64,000 bases of DNA from Thermoplasmata archaeon (GTDB lineage Archaea > Thermoplasmatota > DTKX01 > JAHFTX01), in NCBI GenBank assembly GCA_023265395.1, contig JAHFTX010000012.1, positions 1 through 64,000 of the forward strand. Direction: 5' to 3'. Shown here one piece after another: positions 34,058 through 45,217 of this stretch; positions within the stretch are counted from its first letter, which is position 1; each line of letters begins with the position of its first letter. The notes beneath the pieces were generated by a model that saw nothing but the letters and a program-made list of their open reading frames with translations, did not search any database and was not told where the DNA came from. The position numbers and the translations under genes are program-made.

Positions 34058-34915
34058 CTAGGGCGGTGCAAGACCACGGTCGGCAAGGCCGGAGCGTGCA
34101 AGTCGTCGATGCTGTTGACCGAGGGTGCGCTCCATCGCCGCAGCGTCACCGCCGAACCATGCCGTCGTGGCCGCCTCCAGCTCCTCCTGCACCTCTTCAG
34201 GCGTCAGGCGGTACTCGGGCGGTTGTCCGCGCAGCAGGTCCCGCACATCAACTCCATGGAGGCCCCCGAGCACACAGCCGAGGTGGTACTCCCATTGGTC
34301 ATTGTTTGCTCCCAGTTCGGCGATCGCTTCCGCCACGGAGAGGGCGGGGATCCTCATTGCTGGGGCGACCTGCCCCAGCTCAAGGGTAGGTGGGATGAAG
34401 CAGACCGCCACCGCCTTCCCAAGATGGACCGGCACCGGCACGTAGCAGGGGGACCAGTATCGCATCTGCTGATAGAGCTGGAATTGATATCTGGGGAAGT
34501 CGGCGACCTTCATTGCCAGCTGCCACAGGAAGGCCTCGATCCGCAGGCCCGCACCAGCAGCCTCACGTTCCAGGCCCGCCAGGATCTGCGCACACCCCGT
34601 TCGGGCGGCGATCGCCTGCCATCCACCCTCTGCCAACTGCAGCACCAGGCCCTCGACCGCAGTAGAGTCGACCGGGTCCTGCGGTGAGCGAATCACCCCG
34701 CCCATCGGCCAGGTGCGTGGACGCAGCCCTGCAGCCACACGCGCCTTGGCCGGTCCCTCCGGTGCGACGCGGACGCAGTAGCCGCGCTCCGCAGCCCCGA
34801 TCGCCGCCATCTGGGGAGGTCCCTGGGTCGGCACGTCCGGCCCCTGGCGCAAGCCGGTGCGGCTGAGCAACGAGCCGTAGACGAAGAGCGTCCCGCCACC
34901 TGCGGGAGGTGACAT
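34058..34915 (-). CDS. GGCT/AIG2-like (gamma-glutamylcyclotransferase-fold) protein with C-terminal helical extension
   Basis: GGTLFVYGSLLSRTGL resembles the GGCT-like FVYGSL signature; start overlaps upstream stop (TGATG). Confidence 0.55.
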   Translation of the reverse strand: MSPPAGGGTLFVYGSLLSRTGLRQGPDVPTQGPPQMAAIGAAERGYCVRVAPEGPAKARVAAGLRPRTWPMGGVIRSPQDPVDSTAVEGLVLQLAEGGWQAIAARTGCAQILAGLEREAAGAGLRIEAFLWQLAMKVADFPRYQFQLYQQMRYWSPCYVPVPVHLGKAVAVCFIPPTLELGQVAPAMRIPALSVAEAIAELGANNDQWEYHLGCVLGGLHGVDVRDLLRGQPPEYRLTPEEVQEELEAATTAWFGGDAAAMERTLGQQHRRLARSGLADRGLAPP

Positions 34916-36516
34916 CACCCCATCCCACCGTGGAAGTGGCCAGGGTGCGAATGGTAGCCGAAGCCCCGGCGGGAGCCGTACCACCGCCGCCGGTAGCCTC
35001 CCCAGTAGACGTGGTCGGAGTGCCCGGCGCGGTACCAGAACCACGAAGGCTGATAGTTGGCGACCGCCGCCTGCTGCACCTGGTAGTGGACCTTGAGGTA
35101 GTGTTGCGGCAGGAGGACCGAGCTATAGAAGGCCTGGCTCAGGACAGGGAACTGTGCACCGTCGATCCTGCGGGGGTCGAGCCCTCGGGCGATGGCGAAG
35201 ACCGCAGGGTTCTGGAGCACCAGCAGGGCCAGAGAGGCGTCCTCGCGCGGTGAGGCCCCGACCTGCCGTCGCGCCATGGCCCGGATCGCGCGGTCGAAGT
35301 GCGCCAGCACCTCGGCGGGGCCCAGGGGCGAGAGGGCGGCGAAGGCCGCGGCAATCTCGGGATGATCGACCCGTTGGCGCAATTGCGGGAAGAGGGTGCC
35401 GAACCGGTCGATGGCCCGCTGGAGCTCGCCCGTGCCCATGGTGAGCATCGCCGCCACGGAGGTGCGGGTCGCCGGCTGGTCGATCCCGATGGCTGAGAGC
35501 GGTTGGTTGAGCCCCCCCAGGTGCTCGAGCGTCTGCTCGAGGGGCCGCGGCTGGACCAGGAGCGCCGCAGCCAGCGGGGGGTCCCCGGGGAGCAGCTGCA
35601 TCAGCCGCGAGGCCAGCTGGCCCGCCGCAGGGGTAACCTGCTCGATGGGCAACGCTGCGAGCACCGCTGCCGCGGCCGTGCGCTTGGCAGCGTCCATCGG
35701 CACGCTCCAGAGCGCACGGATCGCTTCGTAGAAGGGACGATGGTCGGGACTGCTGCTGCTGGCGGTAAGGATCATCGCCGCGGCCAGCCCGCCCATCCCC
35801 GGATCCCCCTGGGAGGTCTGCTGGAAGTTGTCCAGGAAGCGCGGCACGGTGAGCTCAGGCGGCTCGGGCAGACCCGCCAGCACGAAGGCCACCGGGCGCA
35901 GGTCGGTCGGCGAGACCGTCGCGCCCAATCGCGCCATCAGCTGCTGGTGGATCTGGCTCCCCAGGGTGATGCGATGTTCGAGCCATGCATCGACCGCGGC
36001 GTTCCACTCGAGGACCTGCTCGAGGTTCGCGGTGCCCAGCACCTCAGGCGGGAGCGCCTCGAGGTCGCGCAGCACCTCCCAGCCCTGTCGGTTGATGGCG
36101 TAGGCGCTCTGGGTCGCTGCGCTATAGGCCAGCCGGGCGAGGGAGGCTTGGATCCGCATGATCTCGAGGGTCCGTGAACGGATCGCCGCCAGCTCCTGGC
36201 GCGTCGAGGTGCGCTCGGCAGCGGCATCGCGCTCGGGGCCCTCCTCTCCCTTGGCCCCCAGCAACTTGCCCAGCAGCGAGGCGTTGGAGCGGTCCAGCTC
36301 CATCTCGAGCCGGTGGACCTTGCCCATCAGCTCTTGCTGTCGCGCCACCAAGGTGGGAAGCTCGGCGACCTCCTTCTTGCGTTGCCCCAGCTCCCATTCC
36401 GAGAGGATGTCCACCAGTCCGCGCTTGACGAGGTCTTGTCCCTCGATGGCATCGAGGCTCACCTGGTCGTTGTCCCGGACGGTCCGCAACAGCGCCAGAG
36501 CGCGGTCAGAACGCAT
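34915..36516 (-). CDS. helical/coiled-coil protein of unknown function with His/Gly/Tyr/Arg-rich C-terminus
   Basis: Coiled-coil-like QQELMGKVHRLEMELDRS; tail HSDHVYWGGYRRRWYGSRRGFGYHSHPGHFHGGMG; TGATG overlaps on both sides. Confidence 0.7.
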   Translation of the reverse strand: MRSDRALALLRTVRDNDQVSLDAIEGQDLVKRGLVDILSEWELGQRKKEVAELPTLVARQQELMGKVHRLEMELDRSNASLLGKLLGAKGEEGPERDAAAERTSTRQELAAIRSRTLEIMRIQASLARLAYSAATQSAYAINRQGWEVLRDLEALPPEVLGTANLEQVLEWNAAVDAWLEHRITLGSQIHQQLMARLGATVSPTDLRPVAFVLAGLPEPPELTVPRFLDNFQQTSQGDPGMGGLAAAMILTASSSSPDHRPFYEAIRALWSVPMDAAKRTAAAAVLAALPIEQVTPAAGQLASRLMQLLPGDPPLAAALLVQPRPLEQTLEHLGGLNQPLSAIGIDQPATRTSVAAMLTMGTGELQRAIDRFGTLFPQLRQRVDHPEIAAAFAALSPLGPAEVLAHFDRAIRAMARRQVGASPREDASLALLVLQNPAVFAIARGLDPRRIDGAQFPVLSQAFYSSVLLPQHYLKVHYQVQQAAVANYQPSWFWYRAGHSDHVYWGGYRRRWYGSRRGFGYHSHPGHFHGGMG

Positions 36517-37892
36517 CAGTGGCCCCCTCCTTGGATCAGGTCGGGCCCCAGCATCCCGGCAGCGGCTCCCGCGATGGCCGGCCCGGTCGCTCCTTGCAGC
36601 GCCGCCGCCACGCTGGGTGGATGCACTGGTAGATCGAGCAGGGGCACGCGCACCGTCTCTCCGAGCAGTCCCGGCGGATGCAGCAGCAACCAGAGCCGCT
36701 GGCCCTCCCACTCGGTACGGGCGATGGGGTCATCCTGCAGTGCCATGGGCAACAGGCCAGCCAGCGTCTGGCGCCATTGCGCCCAGCGCACGGGTTGCCC
36801 TTCCAGCTCCATCGCGGCGCCCCACAGACGTGTGACGGCATAGAATAGTTCGTAGCACGTACGCCCGAACTGCTCGCGCTGCACCTTGTGCACCCATCCG
36901 GGGGTCGGCAAGCGCACCGGCTCGAGCCCTTCGAGGTCGGCAAAGTAGAGCGTGCCGTCGGGCGCGATCACCGCATCCTTGTCCAGCCACACGTCGCGGT
37001 AGTCCATCCCTACCCACCCAGGGCCCTCGAACAGGCCATGTTCCTCGCCAAGGTCTCCCCTGCCCGCTGGCCGCAAGGTGCGGCACAGCACAGTGGTCGC
37101 TGCCACCCCCGAGGCGAGCATGCGCAGGATGCGCTCCTCCAGTGGGAGGGAGCTGAGCTGGGCGGTGGCGGCGATGACCTCCATCGGGTCGTTGCCGGCG
37201 CTGACCGAGCCGCCGAAGTAGACACGTACGTTTGAGGGAACCAAGCGGAGCTCCTGGACTGCTGGCCCATCGAATCGCCGCAGCCACCAGTGCTGCGCTG
37301 CGAAATCTGCCGCCTCTTCTGGGAGCGCCACGACCGCGACCGACGGGCAGATCCGGAACCCACACACATCGGAGGGGTCGTCGGGGGATGCGAGGGCCGA
37401 GAGTGCCAGCGAGCCGTCGGTGTTGGGCAGCCCCTGCGCGCCATAGGCGCTCGAGCCAAACCACTCCTCGGAGGTCACCCACGGGCTTTCTAGCTCGGGC
37501 AGGGGCTCCCCAGCCCGAGCGGGCACACCGCGCATCCGCGCAGCGGTCTGCTCGGTCATCGGCCCGTCGCCATAGAGGTCGGACCGGGTACCGACCCCCT
37601 TGACGCTGAGGACGAACCCTTGTCCAGAGAGGTCGACCCGTTGCTGCGGCAGGATCGCACACCTGTTGTCGTCGGCGATCGCACGAACCTCCCCCCTGGC
37701 TGGGGCGCCGCAAGCTGCAGCAAAGCGCGGCGGGAGGAACCACCGAATCCCGCCGATGGATTCAAGGCTCTGCGCTAGGAGCGGGTTGCTGCGCAACGCC
37801 TGGGCCTCTGCGAAGACCAGGGGACGGTCCTCCTCGCGAACGAGCAGCGGCGGAAGGATGCCGATGTGATGGGGTTGCGGAGGAGTGTACAT
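36516..37892 (-). CDS. uncharacterised protein with kinase-fold-like motifs
   Basis: FVLSVKGVGTRSDLYGDG (candidate ATP-binding Lys) and GMDYRDVWLDKDAVIAPDGTLYFADLEGL (catalytic-loop/DFG-like spacing). Confidence 0.6.
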   Translation of the reverse strand: MYTPPQPHHIGILPPLLVREEDRPLVFAEAQALRSNPLLAQSLESIGGIRWFLPPRFAAACGAPARGEVRAIADDNRCAILPQQRVDLSGQGFVLSVKGVGTRSDLYGDGPMTEQTAARMRGVPARAGEPLPELESPWVTSEEWFGSSAYGAQGLPNTDGSLALSALASPDDPSDVCGFRICPSVAVVALPEEAADFAAQHWWLRRFDGPAVQELRLVPSNVRVYFGGSVSAGNDPMEVIAATAQLSSLPLEERILRMLASGVAATTVLCRTLRPAGRGDLGEEHGLFEGPGWVGMDYRDVWLDKDAVIAPDGTLYFADLEGLEPVRLPTPGWVHKVQREQFGRTCYELFYAVTRLWGAAMELEGQPVRWAQWRQTLAGLLPMALQDDPIARTEWEGQRLWLLLHPPGLLGETVRVPLLDLPVHPPSVAAALQGATGPAIAGAAAGMLGPDLIQGGGH

Positions 37893-37896
37893 CAGC

Positions 37897-39564
37897 TCAC
37901 CTGCGGAACACCGGCGAACCACCGCGCGACTGACCGCGGCTGGTCAGGAACGATTGGCCGGCGACGGTGAATCCCAGCTGCTGGTAGATGCGCGCCGAGG
38001 GGGTGTTCCAGGTGGCCACCTCGGTGAGCGCCTGCGGTATCCCCAGCGCGGCGAGCGCCTCGATGCGCGCCTTGACGAGGTCGGCGCCGACGCCGCGGTT
38101 GCGCCAGGTCGGGTGGACCGTCAGCCCATAGAGCCGTCCCAGCTGCGGGGAGATGTTGCAGAAGCCAAACCCGACGATGGCGCCCTGGTATTCGGCGACG
38201 AAGGCGAGGTCGTCGCTGGTGAGCGTGCGGTCCACCCACCGCTGCACGGCCACGCCGTAGACGCTCTTGGCCAGCGTGACGATCGCCGGGCCGTCCTTGG
38301 GTGTCGCCGGGCGCACGAGCTGCCCGTCGAATCCCAGACGCGCACGGGTCCCCCCGACATAGAGATCGTAAGTCTCGACGCGCGTGCCCTCGAGGCCGAT
38401 CTCGCTGAAGAAGTCTCGCGACCGGCTGTAGCGGAGCAGTTCGTCGGCCAGCCGTGGGTCATCGGCATAGAGCGAGACGGTGCGCGACTCGCGGTCGCCG
38501 ATCACGACCCCGCGCAGCGCCTCCCCATCGAGCGCGATCCAGACCCGCTCCTTGGCCTCGGCAGCCCGCTCGACCATCTCGGCGACGAAGGGGCTGTAGT
38601 AGGAGCGGAAGGAGAGGCGCAGGTGGTGGATCCCCTGGCCCGTGCCTAACCGGCGCAGTTTGGGCCGGACCGTCGTGCCATCGAAGGTGACGAGCCGCAC
38701 CCGTCGGGGGCCGTAGCGGCGGTGGACGACCAGCCCGATGACCACAAAGAGGACGCCCAGCCCTAGTCCGTAGGTGGCCCCGACCATCCACCAGCTGACC
38801 TGGAACCCGAAGCTCTGTGGCGTGATCTCGGTGACGGTGTGGAGGTGGAAGCCACCGATGAAGTCGATTCCTTCGTCATCCTCGGAGTAGTCCGCCGTGA
38901 TCAAGTACCCTGTGTGGGGATCGAAGTAGAGCGTGTTGCTGTAGGTCGCATAGGCAGTCCCGTAACTATCGTTGCGCTCGAATCCGCCACGATCCACCAG
39001 CCGTGTCGACTCCAGTGGCGTGGCGCCCCGCCACACGACTGCATGGGGCTCAGCGACGCTCAGTTGTTGGTCGCTGCTGGGGACAGAGCCGCCCAGGGCG
39101 GGGATGTGCTCGATGTGGAACCAGACGGCGAGGGTGCTGCTGTTGGCGCCTGCGTACGCCTCCCCGAGGTCGTTGTCACCGACGTAGGTACGCTCGACTC
39201 GGTCGAAGGTGAACACACCACGGATCCGTCCGGAATCCGTCGCGCCGTCGCTACCCGAGAAGGTCCATTTGACGTTGGCGCGGAACCGCACCTGGTGGGT
39301 ATCGACCGTCAGGATCTCATAGGTACCCGAGCTCTCACTGCGGTCGCTATAGTCGTAGTAATCCCCCCATCCGCCATCGACGGTGACCACCTCGTGCACT
39401 GAGAACCTCTGCCCCGCATGGGGTGCCTGACCACCGGAGGCCGCAGCGCCGCCAAGCATGCTCAAGCCTGCGCCCAGAAGCAACAACCCGATGAGCGCAG
39501 TGGCAGCGCCGCGACGTCCCGTTCCCGCTCGTGCCCGCCTGCCCGTTCGCACGGGCTCGACCAC
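37897..39564 (-). CDS. transmembrane protein: secreted N-terminal domain, one TM, cytoplasmic GNAT acetyltransferase domain
   Basis: N-terminal hydrophobic signal, TM WWMVGATYGLGLGVLFVVIGLVV, C-terminal GNAT pattern VAEYQGAIVGFGFCNISPQLGRLYGLTVHPTWRNRGVGADLVKARIEAL...IYQQLGF. Confidence 0.85.
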   Translation of the reverse strand: MVEPVRTGRRARAGTGRRGAATALIGLLLLGAGLSMLGGAAASGGQAPHAGQRFSVHEVVTVDGGWGDYYDYSDRSESSGTYEILTVDTHQVRFRANVKWTFSGSDGATDSGRIRGVFTFDRVERTYVGDNDLGEAYAGANSSTLAVWFHIEHIPALGGSVPSSDQQLSVAEPHAVVWRGATPLESTRLVDRGGFERNDSYGTAYATYSNTLYFDPHTGYLITADYSEDDEGIDFIGGFHLHTVTEITPQSFGFQVSWWMVGATYGLGLGVLFVVIGLVVHRRYGPRRVRLVTFDGTTVRPKLRRLGTGQGIHHLRLSFRSYYSPFVAEMVERAAEAKERVWIALDGEALRGVVIGDRESRTVSLYADDPRLADELLRYSRSRDFFSEIGLEGTRVETYDLYVGGTRARLGFDGQLVRPATPKDGPAIVTLAKSVYGVAVQRWVDRTLTSDDLAFVAEYQGAIVGFGFCNISPQLGRLYGLTVHPTWRNRGVGADLVKARIEALAALGIPQALTEVATWNTPSARIYQQLGFTVAGQSFLTSRGQSRGGSPVFRR

Positions 39565-39600: not shown

Positions 39601-42600
39601 CTACTCCGTCGGCGGTGGCGGCAGTGAGCGTCGATGCGCGCGCACCCACCGGACGGCCACGAGGAGAGTCGCGACCAGCAGGAAGGTCGCCCCCAACCCC
39701 CCGCCCACAGGTCCATCGAGGCGCTCGGCGAGGCTGGGCTCGACCACGTCCACCTCCACCGAGGTGCGGTTGGTGTTCCCCGCGTGGTCCACCACTTCCA
39801 AGCTCACCGTGTGGCGGCCGGAGCGCTCAAAGGCATGGCTGATGGTGCCCGCGGTGCTGACGCGCGACTGGCCTTCGTCGAAGAAGAAGCGGTAGGTGAC
39901 AATCCCCTGGTCGTCCTCGCTGTCACTGCCGTCGAGCAGCACGAGGCTGCCGGCACTCACGCGCTGCGGGACCAGCAGCACCGGTTGTGGTGGGACGAAG
40001 TCGCTGCGCACCTGCAGGTGCTGTGGCTCCTGCTGGTTGCCCGCGGCGTCGGTGGCCCAGTAGGTCCACCGGTGGTCCCCCCCGGGCAGCGCCATCGGCC
40101 CCTCGTACCGCACGGGCGCCGCAGAATCCTCTTGGATGAGGACCGTCACAGGGGAGCCATGGTCCTCCACCTCGGTTGCGAGCGTCAGGGTGACGCGGGA
40201 GGAGAGCCACTGGGGCGCGCCGTCAGAGTCGGGGCTCGGCAACGGTTGCACCGTCGCTCCCGACCACGGGACGGAAGTGTCCACAGCCATCGCCAGGACG
40301 ACCGGCGGGGAGCGGTTCCCCGCAGGGTCGGTGGCGATGCAGCGGACCTCGTGCGCACCCTCGGGGATTACCAATGGTGCCTTGACGAGCGAGGCGCCGG
40401 GCGAGACCACCTCCACATCCAGGTCGCACTGGACGGTCGCCTCAGGGTCGGTCAAGGGCTGGACGTGCGCGCGTGATCGGTACCACCCCTGGCTGCCGTC
40501 GGGCAGAGGCGGGTCGGCGACCAGCGCCAGGCTCGGGGGCTGCGAGTCTATTCGCAGTACCAGCTGCTGGGACGACCCGATGTTGCCCGCCACGTCGACG
40601 GCAGCGTAGTGGAGCGTGTGGGTCCCCTCGCGGCCGATCAACGGCCCAGCGTACGGGAAGGAGGCCTCGTCGTCCCACCAGAAGTCGATTGCGTCGTCGC
40701 TGCTGAGGGTGACCGAGGGCGGGTGGGTGTACCATCCCTGGGAACCGTCCGGCGTCACCGGGGTGACGAGCGCACTGGCGTTGGGTGGTGTGCGGTCGAC
40801 CTTCAGATGCAACGCACGAGGCTCGCCGATGTTCCCCGCCAGATCGACGGCCCAGTACCAGAGGTCATGCACCCCCTCTGGTGCGAACAGCGGCTGGGTA
40901 TAGTTGGTCGCCGCATCGGCATCGAGGCGAAAGCGCACCTGAGCGTCCTGCTCGCTGCGCAGCGTCACCTGCGGTGTTGAGCGGTACCATCCTTCGTCGC
41001 CGTCGGGTTGTGGCGGATCGATCTCTGCCGACGCCGTCGGCGCCGTCATGTCGAGCACCACATGGCGTGCCTGGGAATCCTCACGATTGTCCAGCAGGTC
41101 GGTGGCGAACCACTGCAGCAAGTTGTCTCCTTCGACGAAGGTGGGCTGGGGTGAGACGGCGCCGCCCGAAGGGCTCGTCTGGGGCGCCCCGGTGTCGACC
41201 CAGTAGGTCATCGTCGATGGCTCGTCGGTATGGAAAGAGACGATCGGTGGCTTGTTGAACGCCGTAGCGTCCTCGGGAGGCGCCGAAGGGCTGAGCAGGA
41301 GGGTCGAGACCGGTGGCGGTAGCCCGAGCCTCACGTCGAGGGAGAAGTGCGTCGCGCTGCCGCTGCTAGCGATCCCATCGAGGCGGACCCCGCTGTCGCT
41401 CCCATCGGTGCGCCGGCTGTCGGGGTTGGAGGTGTTGGTCAGCGTGTCGAACCCATCGCTCCCATCCCAGAGGGAATCCAGCGCGAAGATAGCGCCTCCA
41501 GGTGGCGAATCCAGCAGCTGGGGCCAGGTCCCCTCGACGAGGTCGACGCGTCGACGCGAGTCATCGCTGTTGGAGATCCGACCGAGGTCGACATGCCAGA
41601 CGAGCAAGCCTTCGCCGGGCAAGCTCGCGTCGAAGCCGGTTCGTTGGCGGACCTCCAGGAGGAAGAACTCCTCGGAGTCGATGGGGATGACCGCCACCTG
41701 CCGGGAGGTCTCGACCGCATCCAGCTCCAGGTGAGTCGGCGAGGTGGTCACGATTTGCACCCTTACCCATCCTAGCTGCCACTTGCTGGGGCCGCTCAAC
41801 TGCGGGGGAAGGTCCAGCGTGTCGCCCCACCCCAGCAGGTCCCATCCCCCGACGCCGAGGCTGGTCCCATCAGGGTCTCGCAGCAGAACGAGCCCGAGGT
41901 CCTCGCACAACAGGCGGCTGACCCGCGCGGTCGGCGCGACCACCGAGGAGAGCAGGTAGCTGGGGATCGTCACCCCGTCGCGGACGACGCCCGAGAGGGT
42001 GGCGTGATGGCTCCACACTTGTGGGTCGCCGATGGAGGAGGTGCCGCCGTCTCCGTCATCCTCGTCGGGGATTCCCGGATGCAGCAGCACCAGCACGTCG
42101 AGCAGCCCGTCCCCATCCTCGTCGTAGAGTGAGAAGTCCACAGCGGCATCGACCGCATCGATCGCCTCGAGGGCCAGTTGCTGGCCGTTGGCCAGTCCCG
42201 GTGGAGGGTCGCTGCTGGTGTCGAAGAGGCCGTAATGGCCCTCGCTGCCGGTAAGATTGACCCAATCGGCAGGTGCGTCCCCCTGCAGCGTGAGGTTGTC
42301 CCCGCTGCTTTGGGAGAAGTACTCGGCCATCGAGGCGGAACCGGTGGTCGGGTCGAGGTAGCGGTCGGCGATCTCCGTCGGCGTCGTCGACGGCGCTGGC
42401 ACGTCGGTGAATGCGACCAGCAGGATGAGCACCCGTGCGTCGGCTTGCACCGGCGTCGGCGGCGTCGACGGGTCGTCGTTGAGCGACCGTGACGAAGGAT
42501 CCAGGTGCGTCGGCGGCGCCCCCACCACCGTTGGAGTCGGAAGGCTTAGCAGCACCACGGCGGCGACGATGGCCACTGCGCCGATGGAGCCCATGTCCGA

Positions 42601-42630
42601 TGGGTGGTCGCCCGGGTACAAAGCGTTCAC
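39601..42630 (-). CDS. M6 (immune inhibitor A-like) surface protein with degenerate active site, Ig-like repeats and C-terminal TM
   Basis: RVLILLVAFTDVP, YFSQSSGDNLTL, YDEDGDGLLDVLVLLHPG are M6-like; expected HExxH replaced; repeats GWYxxxPxVTL...YWAVDLAGN; PKD-like segment; C-terminal TM. Confidence 0.8.
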   Translation of the reverse strand: MNALYPGDHPSDMGSIGAVAIVAAVVLLSLPTPTVVGAPPTHLDPSSRSLNDDPSTPPTPVQADARVLILLVAFTDVPAPSTTPTEIADRYLDPTTGSASMAEYFSQSSGDNLTLQGDAPADWVNLTGSEGHYGLFDTSSDPPPGLANGQQLALEAIDAVDAAVDFSLYDEDGDGLLDVLVLLHPGIPDEDDGDGGTSSIGDPQVWSHHATLSGVVRDGVTIPSYLLSSVVAPTARVSRLLCEDLGLVLLRDPDGTSLGVGGWDLLGWGDTLDLPPQLSGPSKWQLGWVRVQIVTTSPTHLELDAVETSRQVAVIPIDSEEFFLLEVRQRTGFDASLPGEGLLVWHVDLGRISNSDDSRRRVDLVEGTWPQLLDSPPGGAIFALDSLWDGSDGFDTLTNTSNPDSRRTDGSDSGVRLDGIASSGSATHFSLDVRLGLPPPVSTLLLSPSAPPEDATAFNKPPIVSFHTDEPSTMTYWVDTGAPQTSPSGGAVSPQPTFVEGDNLLQWFATDLLDNREDSQARHVVLDMTAPTASAEIDPPQPDGDEGWYRSTPQVTLRSEQDAQVRFRLDADAATNYTQPLFAPEGVHDLWYWAVDLAGNIGEPRALHLKVDRTPPNASALVTPVTPDGSQGWYTHPPSVTLSSDDAIDFWWDDEASFPYAGPLIGREGTHTLHYAAVDVAGNIGSSQQLVLRIDSQPPSLALVADPPLPDGSQGWYRSRAHVQPLTDPEATVQCDLDVEVVSPGASLVKAPLVIPEGAHEVRCIATDPAGNRSPPVVLAMAVDTSVPWSGATVQPLPSPDSDGAPQWLSSRVTLTLATEVEDHGSPVTVLIQEDSAAPVRYEGPMALPGGDHRWTYWATDAAGNQQEPQHLQVRSDFVPPQPVLLVPQRVSAGSLVLLDGSDSEDDQGIVTYRFFFDEGQSRVSTAGTISHAFERSGRHTVSLEVVDHAGNTNRTSVEVDVVEPSLAERLDGPVGGGLGATFLLVATLLVAVRWVRAHRRSLPPPPTE

Positions 42631-42658: not shown

Positions 42659-45217
42659 CTATTCCTCGGGATTGTCTGCGAATTCCGCTGGGGGGGGTGG
42701 GGTCACCTTCTCGGTCAGCGCTGGAGGTCGGTTCCGCCGGACGGAGGCCGGCAGCCGAGGACCGAGGCGTCGCCGACTGGAACCTCCGCCCGTCAGCAGC
42801 AGCAGGCTGGGGATCAGCACGACCGTCGCCAGCAGGCTGTAGGCGAGCATCAGCGTGGAGAGGATTCCGAAGGTCGCGAACATGTTCATCGGCGAGAAGG
42901 CAAGCACCATGAACCCCAGCCCGGTGGAGGCGGCGGCGCCCACGGAGGCGCTCCCGCTGTGCTGCAACGACAAGGTCACCGCTCCCTCATGACTTTCGCC
43001 GCGCCCGAGCTCCTCGCGATAGCGCTGGATGATGTGGATCGCGTAGTCGACCCCGACCCCGATGGTCATGGAGGTCACGGTCACGGTCACGACGTTGAGG
43101 CTCAGCCCCAGCAGGCGCATCGTCGCGAGGATCCAGATGGCCACCAGGATTACCGGGAGCACCCCGATCAGGCCCAGGCGGAGCGAACGGAACACCACGA
43201 TCAGCATCAGGGTCACGACGATGATCGAGATGATCACCGAGGAGACCATGCTGTCGCTGATGTCGGTCAGGAGCTCATGGAAGATCACCGGGCTGCCCGT
43301 GGCAGTGACCTCCACGCTGTCCAGGTGCTGCAAGGACCGCACATCGTCGGTGACCTCGTCGAGCACCTCCTTCTGCTCGATGGTCCCCTTGACGTCGACG
43401 TTGCTAAAGCGCAAGACGGTGGCGTCGTACCTCCCGTGGTCATCACGGTGGAGCACGCTGGCGGCGACCGTTGCGCTGCGAGGGTCGTCCAGGAGGGCAT
43501 GGAACACGATGGTGACGTGATCATCGTCATCGGGGAGCCCATCCCCGTTGCCATCGGAGAGGTCGAGGGCGGAGACCGCCTCTGGGTCGGCCATCAGCTC
43601 GCGGACGAGCGAGGCAGCGGTGAGGAGCTGGATCTGGCCTCCGATGCGGGCGATGTGCTCATCGTCAGCGGCCCGCCGGCTGACGTCATCGATCGCCTGG
43701 AGCACACGCAGCGTGTCAATCGGTCCGCGGACCAGCACCAGGGCGTTGTTGAACCCGACGCTCCCATAGTGGTTGTCGAGCGCCTCGAAGGCGACGATCA
43801 CATCCGCGTCGTCCGCCACCAGGTCGGCGTTGCGCAGGGAGCTCTGAAGGGTCGAGCCCATCCACACGGCCGGGAGGGTCAGTGCGACGACCATCAGCAC
43901 CACCAGGGGGCCGCGCTTCGCCACGCCGATGGTCGAGCGCACCAGCCATCCCGGAGGCCGCCGGTTCTCAAGGCTCTTCCCCGTCGCGTGGGAGGCGGTC
44001 TCCCGTCCGGAGGCGATGAGCAGACGCAGGGCAGGCAGCAGGAGGGAGTTCGCCACCAGCGCATAGGCCATCCCCAGGGCCAATGCCAGCCCAAAGTCGC
44101 GGATGGCGCTGATCGAGCTGACCAGGTTGCTGGCGAAAGCGGCCGAGGTGGTGATGGTCGTCAGGAACAGCGCCAGGCCCACGGCGGAGATGGAGCGGCC
44201 CATCGCGGTCGTGGGGCCGTTGCCGTTGGACCCTTCTTCACGGTATCGATGGAGCAGGTGCAACCCGTCGTCGACCCCCAGTGCCAGCAGCAGGATCGGC
44301 GCGAAGAAGGTCAGCTGCGAGAAGGTCAGGTGCAGGTAGGTGATGGATCCTGCCAGCCATACGAAGACCATCGGGATCATCGCGAACACCAAGATTGCGT
44401 CGAGGAGGCGGCGCAACGTGAGCGCGAGGACGACGATGAGGAGGACCAAGGCGATAGGCAGCAGGATCCGCAGACTCTCGATGCTGCTGTCGTTCATCTC
44501 CTGGATGAACGCGCCAGCGACCTTGGGCTCGATCCCGCCTTCGCGGAAGTGCTGCGCCACCGTGCGTACGGCCACCTGGTCCTCCTCTGCCCCATCGGTC
44601 AGTCGGGTTTGGAGCACGAGCAACGCGGAGCTGCGGTCATCAGCCATCAGCGCGCTCACCCGAGGGTCCTGCAGGACCGCATCGAGCGTGGCATCGAGGG
44701 TGACGTCATCGACCGACGCAAGGGTGAGATTGCGTGATGCCAGGGCGGGGGTGATGGCACTGAGCACAGATTGGAACGCCTCGTCGCGGGGAACGTCGAC
44801 GTAGCTGCGGACACGCTCGTCCGCCCACAGCGCATCCTCGAAGAGCGCAAGCCCGCGGATCTCCTTGGCATCGATGCGTCCATCGTTTGCGAGGGCGACG
44901 ATCGCGACCGATTGGCCCGTGGGTGGGAAGAGCTCCTGGATGTCGTCGTCGGCGTTGATCACCGGGCTGTTGGGGAAGTAGTCGGCGATGTCGACCTTGA
45001 TCTCCAACCGCAGGACCCCAGGGACCATCAGGATGGTCACGAGGACGAAGGCGATGACCACCAACCGCGGCCGCGTGGTGACCAATGTAGAGACTGAGGC
45101 AGCGACCGGGCGCCGTTGCGGTTCCGCGCGGGGGGAGGCCATCGGCTCGCGGGCAACCGACGCGCCGCCCATTAGCCCTTCGATGGGCTTGCGGCCGCGG
45201 CGGTGCGCCCGCATCAT
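42659..45217 (-). CDS. MMPL/RND-family transporter (putative exporter)
   Basis: Two repeats of large extracellular loop plus TM bundle; GVDDGLHLLHRYREEG and GVGVDYAIHIIQRYREELGRG. Confidence 0.9.
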   Translation of the reverse strand: MMRAHRRGRKPIEGLMGGASVAREPMASPRAEPQRRPVAASVSTLVTTRPRLVVIAFVLVTILMVPGVLRLEIKVDIADYFPNSPVINADDDIQELFPPTGQSVAIVALANDGRIDAKEIRGLALFEDALWADERVRSYVDVPRDEAFQSVLSAITPALASRNLTLASVDDVTLDATLDAVLQDPRVSALMADDRSSALLVLQTRLTDGAEEDQVAVRTVAQHFREGGIEPKVAGAFIQEMNDSSIESLRILLPIALVLLIVVLALTLRRLLDAILVFAMIPMVFVWLAGSITYLHLTFSQLTFFAPILLLALGVDDGLHLLHRYREEGSNGNGPTTAMGRSISAVGLALFLTTITTSAAFASNLVSSISAIRDFGLALALGMAYALVANSLLLPALRLLIASGRETASHATGKSLENRRPPGWLVRSTIGVAKRGPLVVLMVVALTLPAVWMGSTLQSSLRNADLVADDADVIVAFEALDNHYGSVGFNNALVLVRGPIDTLRVLQAIDDVSRRAADDEHIARIGGQIQLLTAASLVRELMADPEAVSALDLSDGNGDGLPDDDDHVTIVFHALLDDPRSATVAASVLHRDDHGRYDATVLRFSNVDVKGTIEQKEVLDEVTDDVRSLQHLDSVEVTATGSPVIFHELLTDISDSMVSSVIISIIVVTLMLIVVFRSLRLGLIGVLPVILVAIWILATMRLLGLSLNVVTVTVTSMTIGVGVDYAIHIIQRYREELGRGESHEGAVTLSLQHSGSASVGAAASTGLGFMVLAFSPMNMFATFGILSTLMLAYSLLATVVLIPSLLLLTGGGSSRRRLGPRLPASVRRNRPPALTEKVTPPPPAEFADNPEE

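Follow-up and report, generated by a model that had tools for sequence, protein, structure and literature searches.

A predicted single-pass membrane acetyltransferase of the GNAT superfamily, fused or split and accompanied by two conserved partner genes, in Thermoplasmatota

The lysine acetyltransferases of bacteria have been reviewed under a scheme that sorts GNAT enzymes into five types, among which type III carries a cytoplasmic sensor domain and type V possesses two GNAT domains (PMC8556138). The regulated enzymes treated in that review sense metabolites inside the cell, and none of the types it describes combines an exported domain with a transmembrane (TM) helix; the word 'transmembrane' occurs in it once, in the title of a reference on adenylyl cyclases. 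The small-molecule site of mycothiol synthase is built in part by its non-catalytic domain (PMC4964394). Our literature search, which had most subscription journals outside its range, likewise yielded no GNAT that spans the membrane and has an exported domain. Here we describe a gene with this predicted architecture from a stretch of 64,000 nucleotides of archaeal DNA (the window), and compare its locus with related loci.

The gene occupies positions 39564..37897 on the minus strand, starts with GTG and encodes 555 aa, so that the open reading frame proposed in the earlier note exists as claimed. All of its parts are read from the minus strand. A signal-peptide-like N-terminus (aa 1-43; 39436..39564) with an Arg-rich n-region, a hydrophobic core at aa 24-42 and an inferred cleavage site, but without a Cys lipobox, is followed by an ectodomain (aa 44-258; 38791..39435) of a conserved family that has no Pfam assignment, by a TM helix (aa 259-281; 38722..38790) placed by hydropathy and the positive-inside rule, by a conserved N-terminal domain of the GNAT module (aa 313-404; 38353..38628) and by the catalytic GNAT domain (aa 416-545; 37930..38319). 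Kyte-Doolittle hydropathy gives two hydrophobic segments, at aa 24-42 and aa 262-280, which agrees with the signal-like N-terminus and the single TM helix that the note had reported; its extracytoplasmic domain also stands, at a length of about 215 aa and not the 230 aa or so first estimated.

Several signals concur on the orientation of this protein. Lys and Arg are absent from the 15 aa before the TM helix and number five in the 15 aa after it, which gives an N-out, C-in orientation. Across 12 ectodomains we counted 86 N-x-S/T sequons against 38 expected by composition, and two in the cytoplasmic parts; these counts come from homologous positions and are not independent, and the excess is support rather than proof because the positions are shared by descent. 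The window ectodomain itself has only two such sequons; N-glycosylation of the ectodomain is probable. Hydropathy, the positive-inside rule and the sequon distribution together predict a single-pass type I protein, N-out/C-in, with the GNAT domain in the cytoplasm as the note had supposed, and on these signals a GNAT domain outside the cell was rejected. AlphaFold runs with a single sequence and with two sequences gave models of low confidence (pLDDT 41 and 43).

The catalytic domain matches Acetyltransf_1 (PF00583) at aa 446-532 with E 9e-15 and 55.4 bits, compared with a cut-off of 20.7, and gives profile matches to many GNAT structures. The acetyl-CoA pyrophosphate loop of motif A, VHPTWRNRGVGADLV (aa 483-497; 38074..38118, minus strand), lies inside this match, which confirms the acetyl-CoA site recognised earlier, and its R-x-x-G-x-G core at aa 488-493 is undamaged. 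Motif A reads RNRGVG in the window and RGRGLA and RGQGYG in two further fused proteins (loci L023 and L095), and the form RxxGxG/A is found in most GNAT members encoded by separate genes. By domain score and motif A, the C-terminal domain is assigned to the GNAT superfamily, and acetyl transfer is its predicted activity.

The segment between the TM helix and the catalytic domain, VWIALDGEALRGVVIGDRESRTVSLYADDP, had been suggested to be a second, degenerate GNAT-like domain. A conserved domain is indeed present at aa 313-404, in every GNAT module whether fused or split, and the segment belongs to this N-terminal domain of the enzyme module and is not a juxtamembrane receptor feature. Its proposed descent from a GNAT lacks significant support: a profile-profile comparison with the catalytic half falls in the expected GNAT register (helix, strands 2-3) and yields E 0.012, where the best of 12 shuffled controls reaches 0.0056; one of 12 members matches a GNAT Pfam model, with E 0.12; and no GNAT occurs among the structure matches of the segment. 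A low-confidence model (pLDDT about 50-70) has a helix-three-strand-helix pattern.

The ectodomain carries conserved motifs (RNDSYG...YFDPxTGY...E.D) and many invariant positions, and the window copy is 31% identical to an independent protein (E 3e-19). Searches against Pfam and PDB returned no match and no recognised sensor fold, and ligand-binding domains of known kind (cNMP, ACT, NADP Rossmann) were sought in the same databases and not found in it. A profile search recovered the ectodomain in 12 of 389 genomes, a sample drawn from the same phylum as the window; beyond the phylum the search was confined to exact matches of six peptide patterns taken from the protein of the window, and we do not claim that the family is restricted to the phylum.

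Two further genes accompany the fusion gene on the minus strand. The first, k468 (36516..37892), encodes a strongly conserved protein of 458 aa from its ATG (the open reading frame was listed as 468 aa); the second, h496 (34915..36516), encodes 533 aa from its ATG and ends in an HPxHxH C-terminal tail. Neither has a match above cut-off in a Pfam scan. The spacing is tight, with 4 nt between the stop of the fusion gene and the ATG of k468 and a TGATG overlap between k468 and h496, and it is likewise tight at the L023 locus. Both genes are present in all 26 inspected loci. Of the 389 sampled genomes 14 have k468, namely the 12 with the ectodomain and two others (G040 and G332), in which it sits within 295 and 1183 bases of a contig start, so that the missing genes would lie off the contig. 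Ectodomain, GNAT, k468 and h496 thus constitute a conserved, co-inherited system of four modules, fused or split, that is apparently undescribed; as far as sequence comparison can tell, we regard the anatomy of the fusion protein and the association of the four modules as close to certain.

The motif order of k468 recalls SelO/kinase-like folds (IEDDNRxAI; SVKGVGS..PYS, with KGxG and PYS; LDFHDVWLDKDAVLAPDGT-YFVDLEGIE), and a catalytic-loop-like HDVWLDKDAVL...DLEG is present. A comparison with 25 SelO sequences (hhalign) gave P 0.019, above its controls (best of ten column shuffles, 0.077) and not significant, and a Pfam search of k468 for the SelO family (PF02696) gave no match; SelO is on these grounds not adopted as an assignment and serves as a suggestive lead only. 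The end of h496 consists of a hydrophobic stretch with an H-P-x-H tail, which reads HPGHFH in the window, HP(G/A)HxH in nearly all members from split loci and HPGHVN in L024, and which could be a metal-binding or membrane-contact element. An anti-phage defence or viral system was also considered and rejected: PADLOC gave no match for the window proteins or their relatives, k468 was not found in viral contigs, and PHROGs yielded matches to generic acetyltransferases only.

Further upstream in the window, 36 nt from the fusion gene and on the same strand, lies a gene for an M6-type peptidase of 1009 aa with Ig-like and PKD domains (39601-42630), which adjoins one for an MMPL/RND-type exporter of 852 aa (42659-45217). 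Neither these two neighbours nor the 328-aa protein and the MFS protein that also lie near the window gene gave a match among the compared loci.

The fused form is the rarer of two arrangements (3 of 26 inspected loci). Besides the window it is known from two genomes: in G355 (L022/L023) a single chain of 547 aa has the same architecture, with 27-30% identity across both halves, and a third fusion was obtained from G433 (L095) by further search of one order. With the ectodomain match at E 3e-19, this recurrence places the observation well outside chance. The three genomes represent three families, and G355 and G433 belong to the same archaeal phylum as the window, probably Thermoplasmatota, a placement that fits two families which carry SelO and resemble marine group II. 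The remaining 23 loci are split. There a zinc ribbon (CxYCG...CPxCGAPR) closes the ectodomain-TM protein; it is present in 23 of 23 split and in none of the three fused proteins and is recognised by Pfam Zn_ribbon models in all ten split members scanned. The GNAT, including its N-terminal domain, is encoded on its own and shows no evident TM segment. In 22 loci the two genes adjoin tail-to-tail; the sole inspected locus without an adjacent GNAT (L028, in G218) has one on the same contig at a distance of about 12 kb (C66:46029-46778). In the three fused loci the fusion gene is followed by k468 and then by h496; in the split ones k468 comes first, then h496, then the ectodomain-TM gene and finally the convergent GNAT. 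The genome G423 has the complete split cluster twice, as L100 on contig C2 and as L101 on contig C4.

Fused and split forms separate identically in trees of the ectodomain, the GNAT and k468, with 98-99% SH-aLRT support. Since all fused proteins fall into a single clade, presence or absence of the zinc ribbon counts as one evolutionary change, and the fused form may go back to a single fusion event rather than to repeated selection.

As a whole, these observations are best explained by a membrane GNAT that works with the ectodomain protein and with k468 and h496, an explanation to which we assign a probability of roughly 0.55. The fusion protein would consist of an exported ectodomain and a cytoplasmic GNAT, made together with the cytoplasmic partners k468 and h496, and the GNAT would work on the inner side of the membrane, where it would touch the ectodomain-TM protein physically or be linked to it functionally. 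Where the genes are split, the zinc ribbon would act as the docking element that recruits the soluble enzyme, and in the fused form the covalent linkage would take its place. The most likely reading is that the state of the ectodomain (a ligand, a surface contact or an envelope condition) biases the acetylation of a nearby cytoplasmic substrate, for which k468 or h496 would be the first candidates. Such input-controlled acetylation is a candidate that we advance tentatively, at somewhat less than even odds. The most specific version is doubtful: it holds that the exported ectodomain directly controls the cytoplasmic acetyltransferase in a transmembrane signalling system of archaea that has not been described before, in one chain or in a split form docked by the zinc ribbon, with a kinase-like (possibly SelO-related) k468 and a helical, HPxHxH-tailed h496 as substrates or effectors.

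Receptor-like control is plausible, and simple tethering to the membrane is almost equally likely. In the latter case the TM helix and the ectodomain would hold the enzyme, together with k468 and h496, at the membrane near an envelope or lipid-linked substrate; no signalling would take place, and the ectodomain would be structural or adhesive. The single TM helix with its short linkers, an ectodomain of no recognised sensor fold and the generic docking character of the zinc ribbon found in split loci all speak for a tether, which we consider a real possibility that falls below an even chance. However, an ectodomain of 215 aa with many invariant positions exceeds the needs of an anchor, and it is kept at every k468 locus where the contig extends far enough.

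Alternatively, the GNAT might act on a small molecule (an amine, an amino sugar or an antibiotic-like compound) that is imported or exported at the membrane, and would then be a metabolic or detoxification enzyme rather than a regulator. The substrates of GNAT enzymes cannot be read from sequence, the domain beside the catalytic GNAT recalls mycothiol synthase (PMC4964394; TIGR03448 gives a weak match), and the window gene has MFS and MMPL transporters in its vicinity. Among the compared loci, however, only k468 and h496 recur, and no biosynthetic or transporter gene does; we consider this explanation unlikely.

That an assembly or gene-prediction artefact has joined two unrelated genes, as the earlier note had allowed for and as the separate genes in most relatives might suggest, can be dismissed with near certainty, since the same fusion recurs in two further genomes (L023 and L095), a single open frame of 567 codons covers the window gene, GC3 is 0.79 and 0.90 in its two halves and exceeds GC1 and GC2 in both, and the GNAT gene of split loci lies on the opposite strand, where loss of a stop codon cannot produce the fusion.

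Retained with the same two partners in divergent archaea, a membrane GNAT controlled from its ectodomain would, if true, represent an unusual route from the cell exterior to the acetylation of proteins or metabolites, and possibly an undescribed way in which some archaea couple outside conditions to acetylation inside the cell. Three families that Pfam does not recognise, the ectodomain, k468 and h496, would also be placed in a functional context for the first time. Genes that are neighbours in some genomes and form one chain in others predict a functional link (the Rosetta-stone principle); compared with such fusions, the split pair is here convergent, and the ectodomain protein carries a zinc ribbon in the place of the enzyme. 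GNATs at the membrane, as the window protein is predicted to be, are also found in eukaryotes (NAT8/NAT8L, NAA60), although these are not known to have either a large exported N-terminal ectodomain or the partners k468 and h496.

Among the described bacterial types, the type V or two-GNAT-domain enzymes (Eis, MshD, FemX, NMT) likewise have an extra domain beside one catalytic GNAT, but none of them is described with an exported domain (PMC8556138, PMC4964394), which the window protein is predicted to possess. The type III enzymes (cAMP-GNAT, ACT-GNAT, NADP-GNAT) likewise place an N-terminal non-catalytic domain before the GNAT in one chain, where it controls the enzyme (PMC8556138). The window system is arranged like such a sensor-linked GNAT, yet we do not class it with type III, since the search for a known sensor domain, a defining feature of that type, was negative. 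The sensor domains of type III are themselves cytoplasmic, whereas the additional domain of the window protein is predicted to be exported, with a TM helix between it and the enzyme.
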